Under the pieces are notes generated by a model, which ran no database searches, was not told where the DNA came from, and saw nothing but the letters and a program-made list of their open reading frames with translations. Positions 4,040-43,800 of a DNA stretch of 64,000 bases are shown here, in pieces (position 1 is the stretch's first letter; each line of letters opens with the position of its first letter). Location: assembly GCF_964355755.1 (NCBI RefSeq), contig NC_092675.1, forward strand, positions 27,800,912-27,864,911. Reading direction: 5' to 3'. The position numbers and the translations under genes were made by a program. The DNA is from Antedon mediterranea. Taxonomy: Eukaryota; Echinodermata; Crinoidea; Comatulida; Antedonidae.

Positions 4040-4625
4040 TATAAACAAAAGAGTGTTGTACATGAAGCATAAAGGAGTACACAGTTTGTACATAAAACAT
4101 AAAGAAAATGCGCAGTATGTACATGAAACATAATGGAGTGCGCAGTGTGTACCTGCAACTTAATGGAGTGCGCAGTGTGTACCTGCAACTTATTTGAGTG
4201 CAGAGTGTGTACATGAAGCATAAATGAGTGCACAGTCCATACATGAAACATTACAGACAGTGCGCAGTCTATACATGAAATATAAAGGAGTGCGCAGTGT
4301 GTAACTGCAACTTAATGGAGTGTTCACTGTGTACATGAAACATAAAGGAGTGCGCAGTGTGTAACTGAAATTTAATTGAGTGCGTAGTGTGTACATGAAA
4401 CATAAAGAAGTGCACAGATGAAACATTACAGGCAGTGCGCAGTGTATACATGGAAGATAAAGGAGTGCGCAGTGTGTACATAAAACATAAAGAAGTACGC
4501 AGTGTTTACATGAAACATACAGAAGTGCCTATTAATTAAAATATTGAGAAGTAAGAAAAATAAAAGAACGCGCAGTGAGTACATGAAAGATAAAGACATG
4601 CTCAATGAGTACACTAACAGTAAAA
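4040..4625. repeat. 30-bp minisatellite, about 20 diverged units
   Basis: Tandem units of 30 bp read GAGTGCGCAGTGTGTACATG then AAACATAAAG. Variants carry CTGCAACTTAATG in the second half. A few units are shortened or extended, for example at about 4410 and 4530. The unit length is a multiple of three and is nearly free of minus-strand stops, which produces long apparent open frames on that strand. They are a by-product of the repeat, not genes. Confidence 0.9.
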
Positions 4626-5217
4626 GCAAGTTGATGAGATAGCTTTATGCAAGTTTTATCTAAAAAGAAAATCTAGTGACAAATTTGATTCGCATTTAGC
4701 TACTGAAAAAGCCGCCACAGCATATTCCTACTCGTTACGCAACACTAACTACGCACTAAAGTTGATAGCACAGTATAAAATTACTATTACATACTACATT
4801 TGACACTATATATTCCTATTGGTATCTTTTTCGACACTTAAACTATTTGGTACTACCTAAATAGTATACGTAATTAACACGGTACACCAATCAATGTCTG
4901 AAATTCTTTTGAAAAATAGGCATGCTTATTGTATATTGTTATCCTGTTTTAGAATGTATTGAAAAGAAAATTAACTTATCAATACATATTTAATCTCACT
5001 AAAGAAACTTTTGTGCTGCTAAATACGAAAATCATAATAACAAATAAAACTAACTATATAAAAGGTTGTTTGAGTATAGGAACAGTATATACAATACATA
5101 CATATATACCATGGTTAGCTTACCTTTGAAATCTGTAATTTAGAACTTCCTGACAGAATACAAGTCATTACATAACAAAGGAAGTGAGATGTAAATTCAT
5201 GTTTCCAACTTTACTGA

Positions 5218-18321: not shown

Positions 18322-21099
18322 ATGATGAATTTGTCTGTTTATCTGGTATTTATTGTGGCCGTTTTGGCACAAATAGGTGTTGGACTAGGCTCACATCAAG
18401 GTAAGTCTGATCAAACACACTATATGCCCTAAAGGACCGTCCTCCTTTTAGGTAGGCCTAAATCTGTATAACACTGTGGTTGATAAAAATTAGGATGATG
18501 ATGACTGAGATAAGTGCGAGAAAAAAAACAACAAACTGCATAACTATATATTAATAATTGTTTATATTTTCTTTTAAAAGATGTTAAAGTATTTGACAAT
18601 TTAAGATTAAAGTGCATGATGTTCCATAAGGTACATAGTAAATATGTTCTACGAATGTAATAGAATACTATTAGAATTATAGAAAATTAGACTATTATTA
18701 TAGGAATGCAATTTGACAAATAAATGAAAAGAATGATTTACATTTTGGAGGAAGCTGGTTATTATTATAAATACGTAGTGATGAGAAAACTATAAAAACA
18801 AGAGTCACAAAGAAAGTTTTTTTTAGTAGATAGTGAGACGCACTCATTTATGGTGCAGTCATATCAACCATGATGATTAGGCAGAAATCGTTTCTCTTTT
18901 GTTGCAAATTTCGTCCATATTTTGGCATGCAGTAATTATAGGTTCGAAAGGCGCGTGATCTATGAGATTGGCTTTAATACATCAATGTTAAAAAATAGAG
19001 ATTGTTAGGATTGCATGTTGAACAGTATGTTCGTTGCAGTTCAATTATTTATACTGCGCCGAACTCCGCCATATTGTAGAAGTGCAACCTTGGTGGATTG
19101 ATCAAGCTTCCCTGTTTATTATCCGTAAAACCACTGTATGAGACGAATAACATCATGTGTAATATGATAATACTAATAATAATAGATGTTACAGTTACAT
19201 TATCGTAAACAGGATACTTTACATAAAGGCCTATACATAAGAAAATAATTTAAAAGCCTTATAGTTAATCCTTTGATCGTTCTGGCGGTGATTCGGCCGT
19301 AAAGAAGAAAAGCATTTTGGCATACATGGCGTGTCACACCTATCTTTGATCTGCTAAAACTTATTAAAGCGTATGTTTTTTCCAAGGTGGGTACAGAAAC
19401 TCGTATTGTTAATTCTTTTTTTAATTAGATGATAATGCAAATAATTACCATAGTTTCATGTTTCGAAACAAATCACGTAAACGCTACGTAAAAAGAAAAC
19501 AATAACGTGCGGCGGATTGTTGTACATTAACCGTGGTTTCGCTCGCGTAAGAAAAGTGGTACAAGCTATGCGTTTATAATATAATAATCAACGCTAAACA
19601 TCAAGCTAAACGCGTAAAAGTGGGTAGGCCCTACACGCTATGCGTTTATAATGTAACACCGTTTCTAAAGTGTAGAGACTTGTGATAAGTCATGGAGCAA
19701 TAATATGATATAAGGTGGTAGGTGCATCGAGATATTTCTATTTTACATTCTTTTCTGTTCTTTTAGGCAATTATAGACCTACACAGTCGGCCCAGAGATG
19801 GTATCCCCGTACAACAGAATACTTTGTTGATAATTATTGGGGAAGAGAACCTTCAATCAATTCGATGGCTGGCACCTTGGATCCGTACAGAACACAGAGA
19901 AAACAATCTTATGGTTGGTACAATCGCGTCCACAGTTACTATGGCTTTCAAACTACCGAAGAGGCATTTAAACCATATCAGAGATTTTACTCATCGAAAC
20001 CTAATTATGGCTTTGAAACTACCGAAGAACCATTTAATCCATATGAGAGATTTTATCCATCGAAACCTAGTTATGGCTTTGAAACTACCGAACAGCCGGT
20101 TAATCTATATAATTCGATCCCGAACAAGGAAGATAAAAAGGAGAATGAAGAACAAGCATATTACAAGGTATAGCCCTATATTTATCATTCTAGATAATAT
20201 AAGGCTACATTGTATTTTGGGTTTTTTTAAACACGTTCTAAAAAGAATTCTAGTATCTCAGGGAGAATAAACAACCCCTCAGCCACGAAACATCCTCCAC
20301 ACAACCACAACAATCCAACCCCCCCCCCCCACCCCTCCAACCCCACTTCCTTCTTGAAGGATTAGCTCCTAAGCCTATACCGAATCTTCTACCGTCTTTG
20401 TGCGCTTCTAATACTGTATCTGTTTGAATTGTTTTTATTTATTTCCAGACGATTGTATACACACGATGGCAAACCATACATCCACAAATTAGACCACAAG
20501 AAACTGCTGTCTATTGTCTGTTATATTGCATTACGGCAGGAGTTACATTTCTATTATTCTATGCTGTTTATACACACTGTTACCGAAGAAAACAGAGGGT
20601 AAGTAATAAATTTGAATTGAGATGGCGTTTTATTTGGCAAGATCCCAAATGTATTAGACCTCCTTGCTTATGATTGCTTGCTTTGAAACAAATTGGTGAC
20701 GTCATAAAAACTTATTAACATTTCTAGTTATTTGCCGAAATGTTACAACGGTCTTTTTGAGTTTGTTTAGTTATATAATATATGCCTTTTTTTTTAAATG
20801 AAATTTCAAAGTAAAAAAATTATTGTGTTAAGTGGTAAGTCAATTGTGACAATCAGTAAAACAAACAAGAACCCAACCGATTTTGTAATCACTACAAATA
20901 GGCTAATATAGCTAGTTAAATAAAACATCTTCCATAATGTCAAGATAATAACGAAAAAAATAATTTCTTATTATTTATCATTTATTAGATTATAAACGTA
21001 CAGAGTGGTAACAAGTTGAAGGCTGAATTATACCGTGACGTCGAAGCCAAAACATACGAAATCGAACCAATAATGGGAAAGACCGCAATGGTGTACTAG
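18322..21099 (+). CDS. gene A: single-pass membrane protein with YGF-ETTE repeats
   Basis: I do not recognise this protein. Predicted exons are 18322-18400, 19767-20167, 20449-20598 and 20989-21099, all with GT/AG borders and joining in frame (246 residues). Exon 1 encodes a signal peptide (MMNLSVYLVFIVAVLAQIG) and ends in phase 1. Exon 2 encodes an extracellular region rich in Tyr and Pro, with two full and one partial 22-residue repeats (YGFETTEEPFNPYERFYPSK, 19940-20110). Exon 3 starts at TIVYTRW and holds a transmembrane helix at about residues 180-202, followed by YRRKQR, a basic stop-transfer end. Exon 4 gives a short cytoplasmic tail with SGNKLKAELYRDVEAKTYEI. The last acceptor could also be at 21003 (CAG before AGTGGT), five codons shorter; 20988 is favoured because gene C's acceptor aligns there. 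Type I topology is inferred. The exon plan is shared with B and C downstream, so these are tandem paralogues. Confidence 0.75.
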
Positions 21100-21246
21100 T
21101 TGCTGAGAAGAGCCAACGGAACCTAAAGCGATGAGCACATCCTATTGCTGCTTTATGTCATCGATTATGTTTTAAATATGTAAGATAGATGGTGCAGGTT
21201 GGAATTTCGTCGGAAATTTCATTACGCAGATTCTTTTTGTCGATTT

Positions 21247-21392
21247 TAAGCTCTGTCCACACTAACAAACTTACGTGACAAACAAAATGTGATGTACCAT
21301 ACCCATGGACATGATGATGCCATATCACTACCATTATTTGGGCGGATTACACTTTTTTTTGTCAAACTAATTTGATAGTTAGACAAAGCTTA
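21247..21392. repeat. MITE copy 4
   Basis: TAAGCTCTGTCCACACTAAC opens the left arm and TTGATAGTTAGACAAAGCTTA closes the right one. The core GGACATGATGATG, CATATCACTACCATTATTTGG is kept. It sits about 150 bp after gene A's stop codon, so it may lie in that gene's 3' UTR. Confidence 0.8.
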
Positions 21393-22373
21393 ATATTCAG
21401 TGCAAAAAACGAAAAAAAGAACATTAATACTCAGATGTTTGCTTCTTATTACGGTACTATACTGTTTGAATTTAAGCAATATAGAACGCTAAAACAATAC
21501 TTACTATGTAAGAGTAATTTGTGTTTGTATATATACAGGATCTTTTCAAGAGAGTTAATGCTTCTTTTCCTTTCAAATTGTCTTTGAAATGCATAGCTAG
21601 CTTTATTTGTTTTATGAAAGAGTTGGAGTTGCGGTTTGTCTTGAAATGTTCTGGACAATCTTGCGCATGTGCAAATATACGATTTTATATAATCTCATAG
21701 AGCAAATAGGAGCATATAAATATGAGCTACATTACTACACAATACTTAGAACAGCCATTCTATTGTTGTCTTCTTTTTTTATTGTAGGCCTAGTTTGTAA
21801 AACATGTATAGCATATTTGATCATATACGGTAGGCCTACTAACTGATTTTAAATAAAATGTCATGTTTTTCATAAATGCAAACCTAGCCTAAATGTGTTG
21901 ATTACTTGATAACAAATTACATCATTATAATTATCACCGCGTAACTTAGGGGGTGTTCACAAGTACGGCGTAAGGCTGGCAGTGGCGCAACTCACGCCAC
22001 GTCCGTGACTTTATTAACGACAGCTACATACCCCATCTAACGCTACGGATTTAACTCCAGCGTCACTTGAATAGTTTTGACCATATTTCGAGATATTTAC
22101 CGATTACTGCATGTTTCTTAATGTAAGCAGGCCCTATTGTAAATTGCTGATATAAAACAAGCTCAGCTGCTCTTCGATCTGAAAGCGCATTTAAATTATA
22201 CTATAGTTTTATTGACTATTATACCAAAAGTCTCTGCTTTAAATAATGGCTAAAAGCGTGACGAAAAGAGTGACTTTTGGGAAATATTTTAACTCAGAAG
22301 AAATTGGAAATAAAGCGCTGATAATAATTAAGATGGCCGTATTTCAAGAAATGGTAAAAAAAATCAGTGTAAC
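21393..22373. other. no gene seen between A and the hAT element
   Basis: AT-rich. Open frames at 21372-21587 and 21607-21846 are hydrophobic by composition and show no recognisable domain. A possible polyadenylation signal (AATAAA near 21852) is present, but its connection to gene A is unproven. Confidence 0.45.
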
Positions 22374-23497
22374 ATCTAAAACGCCGCCGTTCCACAACCT
22401 ATTGGTCGCGACCCAATGTTTGGGTCGTGAAAAAAATTTGATGGGTCACGAAATTGTTTCCGATACTGAGACTTTTGATCAATTTATACACTGATCTATA
22501 TGTGAAACGTTCTCAGTTTTGTAGAATCAACAACACTGATTACATTTTACATCTCTACAGTTTTTCCCTGTGTTGACGTGCGGCGAGTCCGTAGCGACAC
22601 ACAATTGGACGCTTTTGACGCATGGTTGGTTGTTAATATACAAGTGGGGAATCCCCTTTAAGGACGTGGATTTAATAACCTACCAACTGGTTCTACGACG
22701 CTATTTTTCTGTAGTTTGCAAAGGAGTTTGTAACTTGACTGAAAAATTGCGAACTTTGATGTACCGGCGGTGGGAACTTTGACAATGAACATTGGAATAA
22801 TAGAAAGAACTATATAAACAGGTACATCCCAAATTACACTCATATCGTCGATGTTGTTCAGGCCTTTATGGTTTGAGAGAACTCCTTGACGTTACATTGA
22901 ACACAAATGTGTTTATCGGCGGAAAAAGTAGCTGGCTATTTGCGAGCGCGATATTATTAGAGTGTCATTTCCGGCCAACTAGAGGTGCCATTTATCATAA
23001 TTTTTACGTGCGAGAGTACCATTTCCAGTCAGGTGTGTCATTTAACAACATTCGCTTCGCCTATGGCCCCATTAGGCCTAATAGAGATTACTATAACAAC
23101 AGTGATTATGTATGCATCATGACTATGTATTAATATGACTGTAGAAATCGCAAAGATAGCTTACCTATTTCCTAAATTAACTTAACTGTCTCAATATCTT
23201 TCAAAATAAATAAAAAAAATATTTATTTCATTAAAAAAAAATCCGCAGGGTTTTGAACCCAAGCTAACTCTTAGAGTATTCGAACAGAGCATTACTTGTC
23301 ACGCCACTAAGTACATGACTGAGCAGCTGACAATAGTCTACGTGTAGGCCTACGTACTTCATCTTACGTAATTCATCGCTACGTCATAAATATATTGTGT
23401 TTCTGTAAGATCAAACACGCAATGTTGGGTCGCGAAAATTCCCAAAATAGGATCATGGGGTCGTGGTCAAAAAAGGTTGCGGAACGCTGATCTAAAA
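22374..23497. mobile_element. hAT-type non-autonomous DNA transposon with 8-bp TSD
   Basis: The element spans 22382-23489 and is flanked by identical 8-bp copies of ATCTAAAA (22374-22381 and 23490-23497), the target size typical of hAT transposons. The right end, read inward, is CAGCGTTCCGCAACC, TTTTTTGACCACGACCC. The left end, CGCCGCCGTTCCACAACC, TATTGGTCGCGACCC, matches it apart from a few changes and a 3-bp insertion. I see no transposase-like frame inside its 1.1 kb, so it depended on an enzyme from elsewhere. It lies between gene A and gene B. Confidence 0.85.
23232..23335 (-). repeat. tRNA-like SINE fragment inside the hAT element
   Basis: On the minus strand the sequence contains TTAGTGGCGTGACAAG (A-box-like) and then GGGTTCAAAACCCTG (B-box-like), ending in an oligo-T stretch. 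Spacing is roughly that of a tRNA gene, but the fold is not a clean cloverleaf, so a tRNA-derived SINE is more likely than a working tRNA gene. Confidence 0.4.
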
Positions 23498-23920
23498 TAG
23501 AGACTCTTGGATAGTACTTTAAAGATACTTGGACTTTATGCAGCTTAGTCGATTTCTTATAAAAAAATAATGACAGTTTTTAGTCCTAGCTCACTATGTC
23601 GGTCGGTTGGTCGGTAAACACTAACTTGAGCACGCGAATGCAGCCATTTATATCGCCTTGTTGAATGGATTGGTACAAACAATTTCAGGGTTTTTACAAC
23701 ACACTAAACTAATATTTTCATTGTTTATAATATAGGGCAATGTGCTTTGTTCATTTATAAGATGTATATCTTGTTTTTATAACTTCCTTGTGTGACGGTG
23801 TAGGCGATCGTTAGTGAATTAATGCATGAGGCCTATTATAGTTCACTATATTATCTGTATGATTATAAGTAGTTTTAACCGTACAGTAGGCCTAAGCTAC
23901 ATTATTAAATTTTATTACCG

Positions 23921-25930
23921 ATGATGAATTTGCTTTACTTGATATTTATTGTTGCCATTTCGAAAACTGGGATAGCATTCCATTTAGCTCGGGCCCGAGG
24001 AGCTCAAGGTAGGTGTATTTTTTATCCGTGTAATAATGATAGTCAATATTTAATTACTTTCTCCATTTTAGTAGTCTGCCTCTGTTGGTACTGGTACTAT
24101 AGTATTGACATGGCGAACACTAGGCACCAATAAGGTGTAGTTAAATGTGTGGTATAAGTAAAATTAGTCAGCTCAATGAAATGAATATTTTAATTGATAG
24201 TTATAAATTAAAACTATACATAAAGCGCTGTTTTTGCGGGTGTTTTCTTGGGTAGGTGGCGGGTTGTGGTTTGTGTTTTTGTGAGGAAGGCCTACTCGTT
24301 TTCTTTTTTGCAGAAACAATTTAATGTGTTATATTTCCTAATATCAATATTTCCAACGTTAGGAGAGATGGTGCATAATAAAAAATTATTAAAATAAAAT
24401 TAAATAAACATTTTAATAATATATAGGATCCAACAAAACAATAGTGGATTATTGTCTGTTAAAATGGCAGAATTTTTAAGGACAGTTGTATTTGGTTCTC
24501 ATTTAGGTAGCCGGCCTACGAGGCCTACACATTACAGGCCTAGAATGTATCAAGTAACAGCAGAACCGGATTACTTTGGTAGGCCTAATTGGGAAAGTGA
24601 AAAAAAAAGAACCTGTCGAGTCAAAGTCAGTTTATATAGGCCTAGGCCTGTCAATTGAAGAACAGGCCGAGAGAAACCCATACCATCGTCGTTACAATCG
24701 AATCCACAGTTACAATTATGTAACTACCGAACAGCCGTATATTTACAATGACTGGCAAGAGTACATAGAAAAGAGAAAACAAGCTTACAAGGTTTATATC
24801 ACATCATTGGTTCATGTAATGAACAAATTAGTTTCACTCCACAAAAGACTACATTGTGTTCACAATCTTTTTGGATCAATCTCAGTTCTTATTAATTCTG
24901 TTTTTATTACAATAGGCCTATAGAATAATAAGTAATAATTATATAATAATAATAATAATAATAATAGCTCCATGATAATAACATCAGACATTGTGATTTT
25001 ACAGTGCTATTTCATAAAGATCAGATTGGAATAGATTTTTACCCAAGGGTCACATCATATTGGCTGGAATGGAATGTACATTAATACTCGTCTAAACTTT
25101 GGTTGAGAAACACTTACTAATTATAATATTATATTTAATATATTATCTAAAATATTAGTTTAATACCTATGGACAATGATGCTGTATCTGTGTTTTGATC
25201 CTTGCTCTAAAAATCAGTTTTGTCCGCGAGAGCGAGAACAAAAAGTTCCTGTAATACCGTTCAATGAGGGTCTAGTGTGTGAACACAATGTTATGCCCAA
25301 AACAAACTAAACTCCTTTTCAGATCATATCCGCGTCTTATGATTGATTTACCGTTGCATCAAAATGTTGTGTTATAATTATACTTCTAGACGGACGGATG
25401 TATATCCACAATGGCCAACCCCACTTCCACCAACCAGCACCAACCATGGATTCAACAGATACATATTTTGTCCAAGTTGTTATCTGTTATCTAATATGTT
25501 GTACTGCTATCGTATCTTGTATTGCTGGTTATAACAGTTTCTTAAGAAGACCAAGGGTAAATAATACATTTTATTTGATATGATTATGTGTATAACAAAA
25601 GGACAAATTATAGTACAGTGCCTATATTACTACGCCTATAGGCCTATACTCCGTTTTTTTCTGTTTAGTAAGACACTTTATTTAATTTGTTAAAACCATT
25701 TTTTTTTTAAGTTTAGTATATGAAAAAATAAATTAGCAGTTGTTTTTATTCATAAACTTCTGTTTTTTAAAATAAATTTAAAAGTTAAACAATTAAGGAT
25801 AATGATTAAACATATTTTTTTTTTCTTACACATACAGAGTGGTAACAAGGCTGATGTGACATCATCGAAGCCAAAACTTACAAACACCACCATGAAGATG
25901 ATAAATAAATTAATACAACAAATTAATTGA
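23921..25930 (+). pseudogene. gene B: decaying paralogue of genes A and C
   Basis: Exon relics lie at 23921-24008 (signal peptide, MMNLLYLIFIVAI, phase 1), 24507-24791, 25390-25556 and 25838-25930. The second encodes YNRIHSYN, TTEQPY and ends QAYK, like gene A's YNRVHSYY, TTEE, QAYYK. The reading frame breaks at a run of nine A (24600-24608): the upstream frame hits TGA at 24655, whereas the family-like sequence continues in another frame, and the exon is one base over a multiple of three. In exon 3 an ACGG duplication (25390-25397) throws VYPQW out of phase, and another shift separates it from the transmembrane segment (YFVQVVICYLICC...). Exon 4 keeps SGNK but loses the tail. Several lesions argue for a pseudogene. 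The A-run alone could be a sequencing error, but the rest are harder to dismiss. The start and upstream TTATTACCG are nearly identical to gene A. Confidence 0.75.
24929..24966. repeat. AAT microsatellite
   Basis: Interrupted run of AATAATAAT units inside the second intron of gene B. Confidence 0.8.
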
Positions 25931-26446
25931 ATAATTTGTGTTCTTATTATCAAAATGCCTAGGGTCTATAGTGTATATTTTATTATTATGGATCATTTAT
26001 ATGCTCCCATGTAACATTGTTAGATCCCCAGTAAACAGTGTACCGGTAACGTACCAACAATGATAGGCTTTGCTACTTATGCGAAGTAAGACATATGAAA
26101 TTATTATGGGTAACCACTCATCCATGCGCATGCATCATTGTGTTTGGTCTTTTGAAATGAGGGCGTACGGTAACGATCTAGATTAATCTGAGTTACTAAC
26201 ACGTCACAGAATCAGACAATAAATACATTTTGCATAACAATACCTTCTACGTGTAGATAATTACAGTTCAATGTATTTAGTAACGCAATTGAAATGTAAA
26301 TAGGTACAATCGTTAGTGTTGCTGCATGTTGACGTTATATGGGCGTAAGGTTTAGTAACCTTTGAATTAGAGGCCTATTGATATAGGCCAACACTATTAA
26401 TTGTTGTTAATATTCGTGTATATTATACGAAGTGTAGATTAGTACC

Positions 26447-29400
26447 ATGAAGTCAGTTCAAGTTACGTTTATTGTTGCGGTTTTAACCCAAATTGTATTT
26501 GGTGTTCCACTGTTGCATCGTGTGAATAGACAGATTGAAGGTAAGGTTTCCTCTCATTTTAGTGTTACATCATGGGTGGAGGGAGGGGATTCAGTCACTA
26601 ACGTAATAGACATATCGTCGTTTGAAATAAAACGACATTATAACTAAAATTCGGCAAATACAGTAGGCCCTAAGTCACAGCAAAATCTTTATTTTGTATG
26701 AATTGTATAGTCAGTCACGCGAGAAAAAAAAACGATGGCAGCTTTATTTTTGTTGCTTTAAATCGTCTATTCATTTAGATTATACATTTACATTATACAT
26801 GTACATGGTGTACAGAATTACCGTCCCTCCAGTCCCATCATCGTTATGGTGTACCGTTCCCCAAATACGATAAAAATTCTCATTCTTAAGCTTGTCCACC
26901 TAAACTGGAACAAATAGGGACGTAATATACAGTAGGCCTACATACGTGTCTTCTATACATAATCTATAGTGCAATCTTTTGTATTCTAAGACTAATTCAA
27001 CGGATTTTAATGCAAATATATAAATACTGACGTACCGTATACTTATTTAAAAACGTTTCACTTTGGAGCCATTGATACCTTGCCCACCTTTCCTGGCAGT
27101 GGTTTCCGTTCATGTTATGAATGATTGTTTTTAAATATTCATTTCAAATTGTAACTTATTTTTCTTTAGATGGTGGGGTTAATCAGAAGGTAGACCTAGA
27201 AGTAGAAGACAATGCAATAGCAGCAGGACAAAATGAGCTAACCAATAGAGAAAATGAGGATAATCCTCCGAATGCAAACGATGTGCCTCCAGTGAATCCT
27301 GAAGTACCCGTTGCTCCTAACAATTCTCCGGACAATATGGCGCCTAGCTATGAAAAACCTGTTATGCCAGAAGCCGAACAAAGAGAAAACAACAACGAAA
27401 ATGCAGAAAACCCTCAAGTAGATAATAAGGAAATAGTTGCCAACGATGGCACAGAAGTGCTGCATGGCGTTGACAATTCTCCGTATAGAAAGTATGATAT
27501 GGCTCCTGGTTATGAAAGAAACCCAGTCACTGAATCCCCTCAACTTCCTGTCGAGACAGGGGCACCGGGTCAATACGCACTTCCTCAAAACCCAGAATCA
27601 CCTCAAATTCCTGTCGAGGCAGGGTCACCAGATCAGTACGCACCTCCTCAAAACCCAGAATCCCCTCAACTTCCTGTCGAGGCAGGGTCACCATATCAGT
27701 ACGCACCTCCTCAAAACCCAGAATCACCTCAACTTCCTGTCGAGGCAGGGTCACCAGATCAGTACGCACTTCCTCAAAACCCAGTATCACCTCAACTTCC
27801 TGTCGATGCAGGGTCACCAGATCAGTATGCACCTCCTCAAAACCCAGTATCCCCTCAACTTCCTGTCGAGGCAGGGTCACCAGATCAGTACGCACCTCCT
27901 CAAAACCCAGAATCACCTCAACTTCCTGTCGAGGCAGGGTCACCAGATCAATACGCACCTCCTCAAAACCCGCAATACCCTCAACTACCTGTCGAGACAG
28001 GGTCACCAGATCAGTACGCACCTCCTCAAAACCCAGAATCACCTCAACTTCCTGTCGAGACAGGGTCACCATATCAGTACGCACCTCCTCAAAACCCAGA
28101 ATCACCTAAACTTCCTGTCGAGGCAGGGTCACCAGATCAGTACGCACCTCCTCAAAACCCAGAATCACCTCAACTACCTGTCGAGACAGGGTCACCATAT
28201 CAGTACGCGCCTCCTCAAAACCCAGCGTCACCTCAACTTCCTGTCGAGGCAGGGTCACCAGATCAATACGCACCTCCTCAAAACCCAGAATCACCTCAAC
28301 TACCTGTCGAGACAGGGTCACCATATCAGTACGCACCTCCTCAAAACCCAGAATCACCTCAACTTCCTGTCGAGGCAGGGTCACCAAATCAATACGCACC
28401 TCCTCAAAACCCAGAATCACCTCAACTACCTGTCGAGACAGGGTCACCATATCAGTACGCACCTCCTCAAAACCCAGAATCACCTCAACTTCCTGTCGAC
28501 ACAGGGTCACCAGATCAGTACGCACCTCCTCAAAACTCAGAATCCCCTCAACTTCCTGTCGAGACAGGATTGTCTCCGAATCAATATGCTCCAAATGCAC
28601 CGCCCACAGGTGCACCAGTAGTAAATATTACCGAAATTGTTAATGTTTCAACCCCAACCGAAACTCCTGACTACTATGGCTGGCCAGATAGTTATAATCC
28701 TCCAAATAACGACCTGTATCCAGATCAATACTATGCTTATGACAAAGACGATTCCAATTATATTTCTTTCAATAATCCCGAGGGCTGGAAAGAAGACCAG
28801 GAGGCCCAGTCACCACCTGAAGATTCTTTTGATACATTTGACTGGTTAAGTGATAGCAAAGACGAAGAACCCTTTGATCCATACGAAAGCATTGATGATG
28901 AAAGTTACGAAAACTTGCTGAAACAAGAGGTAGAAGAATTTGGAAATATTGGCAGCAGCTTCTATGAAACAAAGCAAGAGTCTCCTTCTGATCGACTACA
29001 GGTATAATATAGAACAGTCCCTTTTCTTCATGGATGACAATGTTGATGTGTTTAACACCATATAACTTCCCAATATTATAAAGGTCTCCATATAAAATAA
29101 AACATTAACTCTTTTTAGTAATACTAATTTTAAACACTGCAAAATCATGTCCAATTCTACCCAAGAAAACTTATAGTTATAAGAAAATGTATATGAATGA
29201 TATATTTTGTTTTCTACCTTCTCCCCCTACCTAATTACAATGCAGTTAGGACATATAAGCTCAGTTAAATTTGACATTTTGTTACCCTTCCTAGACCCGC
29301 CATTGATTTAGACCCATACTCATTATTTAGACCTCATCCTAACGTTAAGTGTCTATTTCCTTTTCTTCTTACAGCCACAGAACGTGTACACACAATGGCA

Positions 29401-30322
29401 TGAGTTAAATAGCTCACAAGCCACAATAAATCCACAAGCAGCTAACAATATTCTGCTATATTGTATTCCGGCCATACTATTTACACTTATTTTGTATATT
29501 GGTTATACGAATTATGTCCGAAAACCTAAGGTAAATTTTCAGATTGTTGTTAATGTAGGCTAAGTTACATAATAAATATAAAGAATTTGTGTTGGAATGG
29601 GTAAATAATAACTAAGCCTGTACGCGCTCTTGACGTCATGAGTTCCAAAATGTTTGTCTTGATTCAATGTACAACTTATTTGTTTTTATTCATTTTTTTT
29701 ATCTTAAATTTTGTGTCCCAATGTTTTTACATACCTACAAACATACACTCTTGCATTTAATTTGATTCAATTTAACAATCGCAGCCAAAGGCTGAATTCT
29801 ATAGAATTGGTAAAGTACATGTTTGAAACCACTGAATTGTAGCAAAAAGGAAAATTAACAGTGTTAGAAAATCTGTTTTAGTTTTATCGTGTGAACGCAA
29901 GTAGTACTTTTTTAACATTAAATCGCCACGTTCTGTATTGTGTCAAGAATACACATAAAGTGGAATGCCTTGTTGCATTCAATTTTTATATATTTTTGTT
30001 TTCATTAATTTCATCTCTTATTTCGGAAAAAAATAATACAGCGCACAAAATTCTCCATAGTTCAAGAACAAATTAGTTTAGTACTATGAGTTCTTAGATT
30101 AAATTATGTTTCCACAATGATCAATGAATGAATAGAAAAACGTCACTACCCAGTGTATTCAAGTCTCCCCCAGTAATAACCGATTAACCAGTAAGCATTC
30201 ATTCATTCGTTTAGATTGTAGGCGTACCAAGTGGTAACAACTGGAGGGCAGATTACCGTGATATCGAAGCCAAAAGTAAAGAAATTGAACCAATGTTGAG
30301 GAAAGCGCATGAGGTCTATTAG
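26447..30322 (+). CDS. gene C: repeat-rich single-pass membrane protein
   Basis: Unrecognised protein sharing the exon plan of gene A. Predicted exons: 26447-26540 (signal peptide MKSVQVTFIVAVLTQIVFG, phase 1), 27170-29001, 29375-29530 and 30215-30322 (729 residues). Exon 2 encodes an acidic, Asn/Pro-rich segment (to about residue 152), then about 17 tandem 21-residue repeats (PQLPVE[AT]GSP[DY]QYAPPQ core, residues 153-510). An acidic Tyr-rich region with N-glycosylation sites (NIT, NVS) and an EEPFDPYES motif like gene A's EEPFNPYER follows. Exon 3 begins PQNVYTQW and carries a transmembrane helix at about 668-687, closed by VRKPK. The last exon encodes SGNNWRADYRDIEAKSKEIE. A 25-base microexon (29785-29809, PKAEFYRI) can be inserted in frame if the last acceptor moves to 30221, giving 735 residues. 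Membrane location is inferred; ligand and function are unknown. Repeat number is probably polymorphic. Confidence 0.78.
27532..28602. repeat. 63-bp coding minisatellite in gene C, about 17 units
   Basis: Each unit is 63 bp (21 codons). Units 2-7 are mostly of one type (EAGSPDQY). From about unit 9 an alternation appears between ETGSPYQY and EAGSPDQY types, so the later part expanded as a 126-bp dimer. Units 1, 16 and 17 are the most diverged, as expected at array edges. Frame is kept throughout, which argues for selection on the protein. Long open frames in the other frames come from the repeat. Confidence 0.95.
29785..29809 (+). other. candidate 25-bp microexon or alternative last exon of gene C
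   Basis: AATCGCAG precedes CCAAAGGCTGAATTCTATAG and a GTAAAG donor follows. Read in phase 0 it encodes PKAEFYRI plus one base, which joins in frame to an acceptor at 30221. If the donor is not used, the frame runs to TGA at 29824 as a short alternative tail (PKAEFYRIGKVHV). The peptide resembles LKAELYRD of gene A's tail. Confidence 0.4.
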
Positions 30323-33679: not shown

Positions 33680-34009
33680 ACGGACCTATTGAACGTGACG
33701 TGAACGGACGTGTTCACGTGGAGCTCTCTAAGCTACATTTGTTTACGCTTCTGCTCACCTTGCTACCCCTCACTGGCATTCATCGCCTGTAATACTTTTG
33801 GAGCATCAGAGCCACTCCTTGGGCCTAACTCGCTCTCATACCATCGCTGCCGCGCCTCGATCTTGACACTGTAGTTGTCGTTTTGATCAGTACAGTATTG
33901 GAGCTATTTTAACAGAGATTCAGACCCGGAATTCTACTTAGCAAGTCGTGATCCTATTCGGAATTGGACCCGGAATTTCAATCAGCAATTTGTGTTCACG
34001 GAGCAGAGT

Positions 34010-37000
34010 ATGGCGGCGGTAAGATGTGCCATTGTAAACTTTCGTTTTTTAATTGCACTGACTTGTACTGTTATATTTATGATTCATAGTCCTGATAAAT
34101 CATTACCTATGAAGTTATATTCATCAATTAGTGGCGACGTGCATACATATATGTATTATAATTACATTGATCAGTACGGGACACAATCTTTTGTTTTTCG
34201 CGCTATTCACGCTCCATTTATCATCAACAATGGATTCGTAGCCAGGCCACACAAACGGAAATTTTTCAAAGCACCAACACAGTACTATCCAAACTCAACC
34301 GCCAACTTTAAAGTATTGCTCACGTCCGGGGATGTCCATTCTAATCCAGGACCAGTCAACAACTCTGACAAATCCCGTAGTGATCGACCAACCAAAAAAT
34401 CTGTTTCGGTTTTACTCTCAAACTGTCGCAGTATTCGCAATAAGTCTCTTGATTTGGCTATTTTCTGCGATACTAAATCAGATGGATTAGACATTATATG
34501 CTTAACGGAAACATGGTTGAACTCCGAGGATGATACGCAGATGTTACATTTTTCTAATAAATTTGACATTTTTCGTCGCGATCGCGAATCTGTTACCCGT
34601 GGCGGAGGTTTACTGATTGGTATAAACAGCACATTGCAATCAAAGGTTATTGCATCTGAACTGAACATTGAAATGTTATGGGTCTCTATCACATGTCACA
34701 ACAAATCGCATCTGTTATGCCTTGTGTACAGACCCCCAGACTCAACTGTTTCTTATTGGGATCAATTTGAATTTGCACTAGCTAGCCAAGAACATTCATT
34801 CCATAAATATGAATCGGTTGTCGTTTTGGGCGACTTTAATATCAATTGGCCAAATGCACCACATAAATTCATTGACGTGTTAAACATGTATGGTTTCGAT
34901 CAATTAGTAAACCAAAATACCCGACCTTCCACAAACGCTAATGATGGCTCACAGATAGATCTCGTGTTCTCAAACACGGGATCCTCAGTAAGAAATATAA
35001 GCGTCGTTGACAATCCAGTCGAGAGCGACCACCATGCAATTGAATTTGATATCGATTGTCGTCTCTATTTACCAACTACATCCACAATACGCTCATTTAT
35101 TAAGTGGAACAGCGGTGACTTCCATCATCTAAATAATCTCTTGCATTTGGCACCTTGGAGTATGTTCCTTAACGAAAATGACGTAAACGCTTCATGGAGT
35201 GGCTTCATGGACATTATTGATGCCGCAGTTCGCGATAGTTTCCCGAGGGTCAAAAGCAGAGCACGTAAACAGAGCAGTCCATGGATAACTAAGGATATTA
35301 AACGTATGATTCAGAAGAAAAAGAAACTTTTTAAAAAATCTAGACGCTCTGGCATACAAGAACACTGGGATGCTCACAAGAAATGGCGAAACAAAGTTCA
35401 CTATGCCATCAGGAAATCATATAAGGATTATGTAAACAATCTATTCAGATCCGCTGACAATAAAAAACGTTTTTTTGCGTTTGTGAAAGACAAACGTTCA
35501 TCTTCTTTACCAAGTAAATTTATTGATCCAACGAATAACTCTTATTACTCCAACATTGAAGACATTGTAAACGGTTTTAATCGATATTTTACTTCTATTT
35601 TTAATGATGTTAACGTTCATTTTAATTTTAACGAACCTCCCCCCTGTTCTCTTAAAATCCCTGTACTTGCTGATATTTCATTTAGTCCGAATGATATAAT
35701 TAACACCATATCTACATTTCGGTCTAATTCCGCTCCTGGACCAGACTTAATATCAGTCAAATTACTCAAGCCAATATCGCATTCAATTGCCTATCCCCTT
35801 TGGTTGCTGTATCGTACTTCTCTTAATACTGGTACTGTGCCCAATGATTGGAAATGTGTAAATACTATTCCAGTTCATAAATCTGGCGATAAGGCAGCGA
35901 TAACTAATTATAGACCAGTGGCCCTTTCCTCATTGGTGTGTAAAATTTTAGAGAAGATTATCGTAAATAACATTAATAACTTTACGTATGACAACGGTTT
36001 ACTTAACCCTAATCAACATGGTTTTGTCAAACATAAATCTTGCGTAACTCAACTCAATAATGTTACCTATCACTGGTCAAAAATTCTTGACAAACGTGAG
36101 CCAGCAATTATTGATACTCTGTTTTTAGACATGAGCAAAGCATTTGATAAAATGCCCTTCGACATCTTATTAACAAAAATTGCTGTAAATTTTAATATTC
36201 AAGGTAATATCTGGAAATGGATATCTTCATACTTGACTGACAGGAATCAGAAAGTTTGTTTCAGGGGGGCTACTTCTTCCGTACTTCCAGTCACATCGGG
36301 TATACCTCAGGGCAGTTGTCTTGGTCCAATTTTATTCAATATGTTTGTGAACGATGTTAATCATAATGTTTCTTCTGAATGTTTTCTTTTTGCAGATGAT
36401 ATAATACTATATAGACACAGACAAAATGCCAACGATATTGTTAATTTGCAAAATGATATAAATATTTTATCTAATTGGGCTGATAAGAATCAAATGAAAT
36501 TCAATGTCAACAAAACTAAATTAATGCATATCACCAGAAAGCGTAACTTTGTTAAGCCGTTGTACTTTCTTAATGGTGAGACAATTGCGGTGGTTGATAG
36601 CCATAAACATTTAGGAGTACATATCGATTCTAAACTGAATTGGAATGTTCAAATTGATAATCTAATATCGAAAGCTAATCGAATGTTAGGCTTTATTTTT
36701 TCTGTAGCCGGAAATTGCTCTCCAGACGCGATTTCGTGTCTGTACAAAACTTTGGTGCTACCTATTCTAGAGTATGGTTTGCCGGCGTGGGGCCCCAGAA
36801 ATGGAGGACACATAAAACGCCTCGAACAGGTTCAGCGACGGGCCTCTAGACGTATTCTGGGACCCCACTGCGGACCTATATCATACGACGAACGTTTAAT
36901 AACTTTGGGTTGGTTATCCTTACGTGATAGACGTTTAATGATTTTAATTTCCTTTATATTTCGTTGTTTTTATAATGTAACTTTTTGTAGTACTGTAAAT

Positions 37001-37207
37001 AACAATATCCATATCAATCAACGCCATCCTGAATTACTCACATTTGTCCACCCTTTTGCACGTACCGATACTTTAAAATATTCGTCTATCAACAATTTTC
37101 CTGTTATATGGTCATCACTACCCTCCATAATCAAAGATCAAGCAGTTACTCTTCCTTTGAAAAATTTCCTGTCGAAATTGAAAAAATATCTGCTTGATCA
37201 ACGCTAA
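34010..37207 (+). CDS. LINE polyprotein: signal peptide, 2A-like motif, endonuclease, reverse transcriptase
   Basis: The protein has 1065 residues from the ATG at 34010 (A at -3, G at +4; the frame is open a little further upstream but without ATG). The N-terminus is signal-peptide-like (FRFLIALTCTVIFMI, residues about 12-26). A 2A-like motif, GDVHSNPGP, lies at residues 107-115 (34328-34354); it has His where the consensus DxExNPGP has Glu, so its activity is uncertain. The endonuclease domain (about 131-350) keeps N138, TETW with E167, VYRPP, GDFN with D275 and N277, QIDLVFSN and SDHH with D340 and H341. The reverse transcriptase (about 600-870) keeps NYRPVALSS, DMSKAFD, GIPQGSCLGP and the catalytic FADD with D796 and D797. 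The C-terminal LPILEYGLPAWG and RLEQVQRRASRRI segments are typical of this group. No frameshift or stop is seen, so the element may still be competent for mobility. It copies its own RNA at a nicked genomic target. Confidence 0.97.
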   Translation: MAAVRCAIVNFRFLIALTCTVIFMIHSPDKSLPMKLYSSISGDVHTYMYYNYIDQYGTQSFVFRAIHAPFIINNGFVARPHKRKFFKAPTQYYPNSTANFKVLLTSGDVHSNPGPVNNSDKSRSDRPTKKSVSVLLSNCRSIRNKSLDLAIFCDTKSDGLDIICLTETWLNSEDDTQMLHFSNKFDIFRRDRESVTRGGGLLIGINSTLQSKVIASELNIEMLWVSITCHNKSHLLCLVYRPPDSTVSYWDQFEFALASQEHSFHKYESVVVLGDFNINWPNAPHKFIDVLNMYGFDQLVNQNTRPSTNANDGSQIDLVFSNTGSSVRNISVVDNPVESDHHAIEFDIDCRLYLPTTSTIRSFIKWNSGDFHHLNNLLHLAPWSMFLNENDVNASWSGFMDIIDAAVRDSFPRVKSRARKQSSPWITKDIKRMIQKKKKLFKKSRRSGIQEHWDAHKKWRNKVHYAIRKSYKDYVNNLFRSADNKKRFFAFVKDKRSSSLPSKFIDPTNNSYYSNIEDIVNGFNRYFTSIFNDVNVHFNFNEPPPCSLKIPVLADISFSPNDIINTISTFRSNSAPGPDLISVKLLKPISHSIAYPLWLLYRTSLNTGTVPNDWKCVNTIPVHKSGDKAAITNYRPVALSSLVCKILEKIIVNNINNFTYDNGLLNPNQHGFVKHKSCVTQLNNVTYHWSKILDKREPAIIDTLFLDMSKAFDKMPFDILLTKIAVNFNIQGNIWKWISSYLTDRNQKVCFRGATSSVLPVTSGIPQGSCLGPILFNMFVNDVNHNVSSECFLFADDIILYRHRQNANDIVNLQNDINILSNWADKNQMKFNVNKTKLMHITRKRNFVKPLYFLNGETIAVVDSHKHLGVHIDSKLNWNVQIDNLISKANRMLGFIFSVAGNCSPDAISCLYKTLVLPILEYGLPAWGPRNGGHIKRLEQVQRRASRRILGPHCGPISYDERLITLGWLSLRDRRLMILISFIFRCFYNVTFCSTVNNNIHINQRHPELLTFVHPFARTDTLKYSSINNFPVIWSSLPSIIKDQAVTLPLKNFLSKLKKYLLDQR

Positions 37208-40800: not shown

Positions 40801-43800
40801 CGAAGCATCAGATTGTCTGATATTACTCCGATAGGTTTTGGCACATTTGCAGAATAATTTACAATGTATGTAAATGATAGAGAAAAGAACGTGTAACTTG
40901 CATAGCTACTAGAAGAAAAACAAAAACGACGGCTAAATTATGTGATGCCAAACTTTGCACGCTGGATACTGTTAGAATATATACTTAGTACTTTACATTA
41001 AGTAGTTTGGTTACTCTCAAACTTAAGGAAAATAAGGCTAGGAATAGATAAATTATGGAACATGATAATAACAAATTTGTTATAAATGTACCATAAAAAA
41101 CGATTTAAAAGAAAAGAGTCTATAGAAACTAATGTAGTTTGAATTATGAAACTAGCAAAAAAAAAACTATGCTTATTTCATATAATTGCTACTGAACTAT
41201 GAACCTAAAAATACTGTACATTATTACTAATATTTTAATAATTGATGTTACAGCCTGAAATTTAAAAAATAATGAATGATGGTCTGTTTGGCCTGGCTGT
41301 TATTCTAGCCAAGTATACATCTGTAAACAGTAGGGGGTCGTCTTTTTACCATACTCCACAATTATTCTCATCGACATTATCATGCCAGCCTACACTCATC
41401 ATACTAATATTCTATACTGTAGTAGGCCTAGTAGTAACTAACAGTAGTATTATTAATACACTACAGTACTTAAAGAAAATGCAATTGATGTACAGGTTTT
41501 CAGTAAATAATACTGGATCATCAAGAGGGAAAATTTATATAGTCTAAATTAACATTTTTTAAAACCATCACTGTAATAACAATTAGAATTGTGTTAGTGT
41601 TGTATTTTTCGTAATTTGTTTGTTACCATACTGCAGTGTTCTCCCCAGGATTCACATCAAGCGTCACGCTTCCCCCCCCCCCCCCCCCGGGGGGGGGGGG
41701 GCATTCCGACACTAAGTACTTGAGTCACAGCCCCACCATGGTTGGGGCTGTGGCGAAGCGATTTTTGGTAATTTACCCCCTAGATGGCCGGAAATGGTAC
41801 TCTCGCACATAACATTTATGTTGAATGACACCTCTGGTTTGGCCGGAAATAACACTTATAGCGCGCTAGCAAACAACAAAACGATCGTAGCCAACTTTTT
41901 CCGCCGGTAAACATACGCGAAGAAACATTTTTTGCGTTCATTACGAACGTCAGGGGGAAGCCCCAATGAAAAAAATAGGCCTAATCTATTAGCCTACTCA
42001 TCAGTAGGACAACTCTAGTTGGCCGGAAACGAAACTTTATAGCGCACTAGCAAACAGTAAAACCATCGTAGCATACTTTTTCCGCCAGTAAACATACGCG
42101 ATAAAAAAATGTTTTTGCGTTCAATACGAACGTCAAGGGGAATTCCCCGATGAAATAAAACTAGGCCTACTCATGAGTAGAACAACTCTGTAGTTGGCCG
42201 GAAAGACACTTCATAGCGCGCTAGCAAACCGCACGATCGTACGTAGCCTGCTTTTTCCGCCGGTAAACATACGCGATAAGAAACATTTTTTGCGTTCATT
42301 ACGAACGTCAAGGGGAATTCCCCGATGAAATAAAAAATGCCTACTCATCAGTAGGACAACTCTATAGTTGGCCGGAAAGGACACTTCATAGCGCGCTAGC
42401 AAACAGCCCGATTGAGCCTACTTTTCCGCAGGTAAACATACTGTACGCGATATATGAAAAAAAAATATGCCTCATCAGTAGGCAACTGTAGTTAGTTGGA
42501 AACGACACCTCATAGCGCGTTAGCAAACATTAAAAACGATCGTAGCCTACTTTTTTTTCTGCCGGCGGGTAAACATATGCGATAAAAAAACATTTTTTGC
42601 GTTCAAATACAAATATCGGGGGAAAGTCCCGATGAAATAAAACTAGGCTTACTCATTAGTAAGACACCTCAAGTTGCCCGGAAATAAGACTTCATAGCGC
42701 ACAAGGAAATAGGAAAACATTCGAAAGAGAGACATGGCAGTAACAAAACACGTGCTTACATCTCTCGGCGGCGGCCGGTGAAAGCACCATGTGACATACA
42801 GTATCGCAGTACTGATATCACAATACCATGTGACATCCCTTGTCACTCGACTTTCTCACGAAGTAGGGCCTAAAACATTCTAGCACCGATGTACAAATGT
42901 ACCTTAAGTTAAGTGAAATAAGACTTTAGCGCACTAGCAAATAGGAAAACGATCGTAGCCTTCTTGAATGTATTATACGATCAAAGCAGCTAGCATTGAA
43001 TTGCGCCTAGAAATCATTTGATGACGTGCGTATGTTATGAAAGCGAGTCTCAGTTGTTTAACACTTTGTTACGCAGTCTTTTGTTTTTCGTCTAGTGGTC
43101 ATGTCACGTGTCTCGTATGCATTAGGCTCTTTATGCATGCCGCGCCTCAGCTCTAGAAAAAGTACCGTACCTCTGCCTGTTAATCTATTTTTAGATTGTT
43201 GTGGTTGATATTTTTAAGCGTCACGGATAAGGTTTTAAGCGTCACGGCCGACCGTAAAGCGTCACGGTAGAGAACCCAAGCGTCACGGTACCGTGACGCT
43301 TCAAAGGCCTGGGGAGAACACTGATACTATTAACACATTTTGACTATTGTATATGGACACACAGGCTCACTGGTGCTACAGTAGCTTGCTGTATGTAAGT
43401 CAAATTTATGATTTTATGTCGTTTAAATATATTCCTGTTTTTCTTTAATTTTTAATAAATAATGTTCTGGGTCATAATGAAAATGAATGCATTTCAGTAT
43501 GGATTCGTCCTTATACACACTTTGAATAAAGCACTCTGTTTGTTTTCAGGTGTATAGTAAAGCAAATTCTCTACACAATAAGATCAGACATGTCTATTGT
43601 ACTTATTCTAAGGTTACACCTCTATTTCCATTGTGTCTTACTTGCTATAAGCATTTCCTTTTTTTAATTATTCTCAGTTTGCTTATTGTATTATTAATCC
43701 ACTATATAACTACCTTTCCACTGACTCATGTGTTTCAACAATTTGTAAAAGCTGATTAATTTATTATGGAATTTTCTCCACCCATTGCCTCTAGTTACTA

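Follow-up and report, generated by a model that had tools for sequence, protein, structure and literature searches.

Tandem genes of the crinoid Antedon mediterranea for predicted type I membrane proteins with conserved anchor exons and divergent outer exons

What kind of protein family keeps its membrane anchor and tail while its outer part changes fast? The question is raised by a locus of the crinoid Antedon mediterranea that lies in a window of 64,000 nucleotides (contig NC_092675.1, here C6:27800912-27864911) of a 354-Mb genome in 18 contigs. Two intact neighbouring genes, A and C, and one broken copy, B, stand here in tandem and appear to form a small family whose products are predicted to be single-pass membrane proteins of type I. 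They occupy window positions 18322-30322, the first base being exactly that of the A start codon and the last exactly that of the C stop codon. An initial annotation had proposed a tandem family of membrane proteins with a conserved anchor and tail, a fast-changing outer exon and one decayed copy, and our gene models and the shuffle tests between A and C support this proposal.

Two intact genes and a broken copy

The exon structures of A, B and C were predicted from genomic DNA (Table 1). Genes A and C each comprise four predicted exons, with GT...AG at every intron and phases 1-0-0 in both, and their products are 246 and 729 aa long, respectively. These borders and phases bear out, for A and C, a four-part plan of a signal peptide ending in phase 1, a large outer exon, a transmembrane exon and a tail. 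Both proteins have one hydropathy peak at the N-terminus and another near the C-terminus; in A, the signal peptide peak covers residues 4-22. Polyadenylation-like hexamers (AATAAA/ATTAAA) lie downstream of A (21852) and C (31133, 31441).

The predicted last two exons of A and C are homologous far beyond chance. The joint alignment of exons 3 and 4 scored 158, where shuffles averaged 24 and peaked at 48; taken singly, exon 3 scored 69 (shuffle maximum, 50) and exon 4 scored 89 (maximum, 40). The signal peptides of exon 1 scored 46, a narrow margin over the shuffle maximum of 43; in each of the four tests, none of 2000 shuffles reached the score. The claim that the flanking exons are homologous thus holds for exons 1, 3 and 4 of A and C. 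At the DNA level, only exon 4 aligned well (E 6e-14). A 27-base stretch of the ectodomain matched at E 0.005 and the remaining matches, introns included, at E of at least 0.2; the introns of A and C are as unalignable as most of the ectodomain.

It is very improbable that these models are an artefact in which fortuitous open frames and a coding minisatellite were strung together by eye. Such an origin would be compatible with models predicted from DNA alone, with a C repeat array that is also open in frame +1 and with an A exon 2 that is also open in one further forward frame. The homology of three exons and the identical intron phases argue against it, as does the predicted frame itself, which is free of stops in A exon 2 and in both non-repeat parts of C exon 2, the latter two having stops in all five other frames. 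Over 15 C repeat units, pN/pS (the ratio of the proportions of nonsynonymous and synonymous differences) was 0.48 in frame; the remaining two forward frames gave 1.07 and 3.02. By codon position, the units showed 18, 7 and 19 changes relative to the repeat consensus, which fits the pattern expected of coding DNA.

Gene B has decayed to a pseudogene whose reading frame is broken in each of exons 2, 3 and 4. Its first exon retains 82.7% DNA identity with that of A over a 52-base alignment starting 9 bases before the ATG. The length of exon 2 is out of step with the family phase, and exon 4 carries SGNKAD in one frame and IIEAKTY in another. Therefore, the exon plan, which had been proposed as common to all three genes, stands for A and C, whereas B has neither an intact VY[TP][QR]W plus transmembrane exon nor an intact YRD[VI]EAK tail.

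Table 1. Predicted features of genes A, B and C (positions in the window)
Feature	Position	Strand	Basis or remark
A exon 1: start codon and signal peptide, phase 1 end	18322..18400	+	GT donor, hydropathy
A exon 2: ectodomain	19767..20167	+	gene model, composition
A tandem repeat, 66 bp / 22 residues, 2.6 copies	19940..20110	+	within exon 2
A exon 3: VYTRW juxtamembrane part and transmembrane helix (~residues 179-202)	20449..20598	+	gene model, hydropathy
A exon 4: cytoplasmic tail and stop	20989..21099	+	
A YRDVEAK codons	21031-21051	+	in exon 4
B exon 1: signal peptide	23921..24008	+	
B exon 2	24507..24791	+	frame switches internally
B exon 3	25390..25556	+	VYPQW and transmembrane helix in separate frames
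B exon 4: tail out of frame	25838..25930	+	
C exon 1: start codon and signal peptide, phase 1 end	26447..26540	+	gene model, hydropathy
C exon 2: ectodomain	27170..29001	+	gene model, composition, AlphaFold
C tandem repeat, 63 bp / 21 residues, 16.5 copies	27532..28568	+	within exon 2
C exon 3: VYTQW juxtamembrane part and transmembrane helix (~residues 664-687)	29375..29530	+	gene model, hydropathy
C exon 4: cytoplasmic tail and stop	30215..30322	+	
C YRDIEAK codons	30254-30274	+	in exon 4

Character and divergence of the outer exon

The ectodomain of A (134 aa) contains 13.4% Tyr and has a net charge of 0, and that of C (~611 aa) is rich in Pro (20.8%), Gln and Asn and has a net charge of -82. 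Neither contains Cys, so neither holds a cysteine-based module. N-glycosylation sequons are absent from A outside the signal peptide and present in C at 82, 517 and 523, with one more in exon 3 at 654. Both proteins fall on the disordered side of the Uversky boundary (A, H 0.334 against 0.413; C, 0.370 against 0.461). An AlphaFold run on C exon 2 alone gave a mean predicted local distance difference test score (pLDDT) of 41 and little structure apart from two helices near the membrane end, a short one and one of 19 residues; this run used a single sequence without an alignment and lends weak support to disorder. Transmembrane mucins have a signal peptide, coding tandem repeats, one membrane helix and a short tail, and A and C resemble them in all of these. 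Unlike such mucins, their ectodomains hold only 11-16% Ser plus Thr (15.7% in A, 11.1% in C), and the description of the genes as mucin-like was rejected.

The ectodomain had been described as different in each gene. This is correct for C, which is unlike A, and wrong for at least part of B, since the second part of B exon 2 is related to the A repeat region (score 69 against a shuffle mean of 31.6; 0 of 3000 shuffles as good). The Arg-Pro-rich first part of B exon 2 is indistinguishable from chance in its weak match to the start of A exon 2, which 298 of 3000 shuffles equalled. For C, the N-terminal part was matched against A as well by 359 of 2000 shuffles, and the membrane-proximal part by 84 of 2000 and, in a second run, 143 of 3000. 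Against B, the membrane-proximal part of C paired with the first part through TAEPDYFGRP / TETPDYYGWP (86 of 3000) and the N-terminal part with the second part (84 of 3000), while the other two comparisons gave 2191 and 2738 of 3000. With so many tests, no comparison of the C ectodomain with A or B is significant; the C outer exon may possibly share residual common ancestry with theirs.

Has selection driven the outer exons apart? Diversifying pressure had been suggested, but neither the A-C anchor exons nor the C repeats show a sign of it. Nonsynonymous (dN) and synonymous (dS) divergence between A and C were 0.53 and 0.95 in exon 3 (48 codons), 0.30 and 0.79 in the tail of exon 4 (35 codons), and 0.42 and 0.88 in the two together (83 codons; dN/dS ~0.48), and the anchor exons are under constraint. 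Among the first 16 C repeat units, pN was 0.058 and pS 0.116, with dN/dS again ~0.48; pN/pS rose to 0.59 when the degenerate 17th unit was included. In A, repeat units 1 and 2 differed by a dN of 0.12 and a dS of 0.17, and units 2 and 3 (14 codons) by 0.17 and 0.28. The repeats and anchors do not call for diversifying selection, although positive selection may still act on the ectodomain.

Several later C units alternate between VEA..D and VET..Y in a two-unit pattern, and over the 17 units the differences were 5.1 at a distance of two, 6.0 at one and 6.9 at eight. Since likeness is highest two units apart, the array fits unequal exchange in blocks of two. Relaxed constraint accounts for the difference between the outer exons as well as an arms race does. 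At a dS of ~0.9, a disordered exon that is under loose constraint and prone to indels would be expected to lose its alignability in any case.

These results bear on whether A and C are gamete or immune surface recognition genes whose outer exon was driven apart by diversifying selection, an account that we regard as unlikely. It would explain tandem copies with a decayed one, and the conserved anchors beside an outer exon that is divergent and rich in repeats resemble the layout of the SpTransformer genes, in which a leader exon precedes a repeat exon (PMC5491942). It is weakened by dN below dS in repeats and anchors, by relaxed constraint and indels, which at a dS of 0.88 would already have made the outer exon unalignable, and by the introns, which are likewise unalignable. 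The family is also small, with two intact genes and one pseudogene found, against ~50 SpTransformer members (PMC5491942).

The SpTransformer (SpTrf, or Sp185/333) immune genes of sea urchins have two exons, a leader followed by the whole mature protein, and encode disordered proteins with no predicted transmembrane region and with Gly-rich and His-rich parts bearing an RGD motif (PMC5491942). They are also induced by immune challenge. Genes A and C are like them in being echinoderm genes in tandem, with the leader in exon 1, size-variable repeats in exon 2 and predicted disorder. In contrast, A and C have four predicted exons, a predicted transmembrane helix and a conserved tail, and their ectodomains contain 5.2% and 4.7% Gly and 0.7% and 0.2% His, respectively, with no RGD seen by eye in the translations. 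Thus, A and C lack three of the four defining SpTrf features tested and share repeats in exon 2 with a predicted disordered product. An echinoderm-only receptor-like family is conceivable in which signal-peptide, transmembrane and phospho-tail exons stay constant and the outer exon is rewritten by the birth and expansion of minisatellites, repeat number varying between individuals as the recognition variable; we hold this to be improbable.

Relatives and surroundings

Searches of the 354-Mb genome found no convincing member beyond A and C, although decayed or far-diverged copies would be missed. At E up to 10, the A protein had seven matches, C exons 3 and 4 had six and A exon 3 had two. The A search listed the C tail at E 0.42 and the C search the A tail at E 0.04; since the two tails found each other, equally diverged members would have been listed. 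B was absent from the A search, and decayed copies are therefore missed. A two-sequence profile run on open frames of at least 20 residues in 244 kb around the locus (5,000 letters of it N) placed only A and C above the inclusion threshold.

Outside A and C, there were five weak protein matches (E 0.46-2.98) and one exact pattern match on contig C2, and four of these six places were scored (all but C2:649610 and C1:6510290). The strongest of the four, on contig C5, exceeded the exon 3 inclusion threshold within this small set (E 4.4e-5, 852 frames); it was dismissed because it lies in an intron-like gap of another gene and no tail exon there exceeded the threshold. That multi-exon gene (positions 1102-4528 of L020, C5:9352201-9355627) is, from its translation, presumably of an NB-ARC plus TPR-like kind. 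The other three scored places were below the threshold. Exact matches to YRD[VI]EAK, in a search pattern that also accepts Ser for Arg, occurred three times genome-wide, in A, in C and once on C2, where the match reads YSDVEAK and the tail profile gave its frame 8.2 bits (E 0.086). Allowing one mismatch brought the total to 16 places, against 11 for a reversed control pattern, so that the mismatched ones are mostly noise.

Pfam returned nothing over its cut-off for A, C or their anchor exons. The near-matches, TMEM132_C, a herpesvirus glycoprotein, SPP, DUF5316 and B12D, were all below it; TMEM132 membership was rejected, as TMEM132_C scored 15.6 bits for A exons 3 and 4 and 14 for whole A against a cut-off of 27, and was not listed for C. 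Among PDB sequences, nothing fell below E 0.08 for whole A or for the C anchor exons, which were the queries, and the hits of A on designed repeat proteins (E 0.08-0.43) were attributed to composition and set aside. No relative in a named family thus emerged from Pfam or, for these queries, from PDB sequences. An origin of the C ectodomain by exon shuffling was also rejected, with no convincing match elsewhere for its repeat or its membrane-proximal part (the search covered these two and left out the N-terminal 120 residues): the membrane-proximal part had no other genome match at E up to 10, and the repeat none below E 0.02, that one being in a frame with stops. Word searches of the literature brought up no publication describing a family of this kind, though one may exist in print. 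As far as could be seen, the family is restricted to this locus of one echinoderm genome.

A Pfam scan of the surroundings gave any match in 4 of 10 frames. The neighbours comprise a Dickkopf-like gene, a rhodopsin-type receptor and a DOCK-type DHR-2 domain, ~60-110 kb away where dated by position, and a nearer laminin-G-like match below its cut-off. None of them hints at a role for A or C.

Several other features were observed. Within the window, a 30-bp minisatellite of ~16 copies, which also shows higher-order periodicity at 122 and 152 bp, lies at 4050-4528, and a 175-bp tandem array of 2.6 copies at 41992-42441; the unit of the latter resembles by eye, on the opposite strand, a stretch between A and B near 22905-22990 and is probably a dispersed repeat. 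A 1106-residue open frame at 33887-37207 (+) reads as endonuclease- and reverse-transcriptase-like, and SGDVHSNPGP near its N-terminus is what we take to be a 2A-like recoding motif. A study of 2A-like sequences that act as signals in the NLR proteins of S. purpuratus also mentions non-long-terminal-repeat retrotransposons (PMC4981915). L017 holds an acidic, low-complexity open frame of VDGN/VDDN repeats (4560-4934, -). Elsewhere in the genome, the Pfam bindin model matched at C1:15551379-15554576 (L001; E 2.3e-28). The open frame there reads as a bindin core like those published; the core exon adjoins a long tandem repeat stretch that may belong to the bindin gene. Since bindin is not known from outside the echinoderms, this match supports an echinoderm host. 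A search for COX1 gave no match.

Possible roles of the proteins

What could such proteins do? One account is that they belong to skeleton-forming cells and, like P16 and P58, are disordered proteins, tethered to the membrane and either acidic or Pro-rich, that help to shape calcite. P16 (transmembrane) and P58-A/B (type I transmembrane) are biomineralisation proteins (PMC13200730) and are termed phylum-specific (PMC8870065), and the gene of an abundant matrix protein, Sp-Hypp_2998/2999, adjoins Sp-P16 (PMC2909932). The acidic (net -82), Pro-rich ectodomain of C would suit this account, and A and C are, like P16 and P58 as described there, predicted to be membrane-anchored. Sp-Hypp_2998/2999 is described as Gly/Pro-rich (30% Gly, 10% Pro), predicted to be mostly random coil, and as having a transmembrane segment at its C-terminus and an isoelectric point (pI) of 11 (PMC2909932). 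It thus resembles A and C in predicted disorder and the C-terminal transmembrane segment, whereas its 30% Gly and pI of 11 differ from the acidic, Pro/Gln-rich C.

Regulatory motifs told little about a skeletogenic role: the upstream-plus-intron-1 stretches of A, B and C held no Alx1 palindrome and no long Ets motif, a weak result as few were expected (0.2-0.4 and ~0.1 per stretch, respectively, from the base rate in 239 kb). The short Ets core, found 2, 5 and 3 times in A, B and C against 3.8, 2.5 and 1.9 expected, says little. We consider a skeletogenic role fairly unlikely. By description, P16, P58-A/B and Sp-Hypp_2998/2999 would be the nearest membrane-protein analogues that we met in the phylum (PMC2909932, PMC2527298, PMC13200730, PMC8870065, PMC4709884, PMC5859501). 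The family may work like the SpTrf or the P16/P58 kinds, and we file it as a member of none.

Our tentative preference, held at somewhat less than even confidence, is that A and C are disordered type I proteins of the coat or matrix that bear repeats and whose conserved tail serves trafficking or signalling. The signal peptide would route the chain into the secretory pathway and the single helix would anchor it in the membrane. The outer exon would provide an unstructured, Cys-free chain that extends outwards from the cell and forms a flexible coat or a polymer binding the matrix. The conserved tail of ~40 residues, with YRD[VI]EAK and a final Val-Tyr, may dock cytoplasmic partners and hold the function-critical contact. 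YRDV in A and YRDI in C lie in exon 4, the anchor exon with the lower dN, and we take them to fit a Yxx-hydrophobic sorting signal and also an SH2 ligand. The partner would most simply be a clathrin adaptor or, on phosphorylation of the tyrosine, an SH2 protein. Repeat length would shift by unequal exchange, and outside the repeats the outer exon would drift under loose constraint while anchor and tail are kept.

Several points weigh against this preference for a coat or matrix protein. The proposed role and tail partners rest on composition and a sequence motif, and the exons of A and C come from genomic DNA of one species, so that any of them could be wrong; in A exon 4, as read, a second in-frame acceptor is possible. 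The reverse frames of the C array gave pN/pS of 0.50, 1.49 and 0.39 (with 29, 1 and 44 stops); because two of these are close to or below the coding frame, pN/pS alone is no proof of coding. Finally, the decay of B shows that at least one copy is dispensable.

Because the tail is conserved under constraint, the proteins probably do more than passively fill space. The locus opens no new class of system. If the genes are expressed, they would offer a compact case for following how minisatellite growth replaces or rebuilds a disordered outer exon beside a fixed anchor and tail, and A and C, at a dS of 0.88, are close enough that sister species may hold intermediates. The family would add to the lineage-specific surface proteins of echinoderms, a list that includes skeleton-building and immunity genes.

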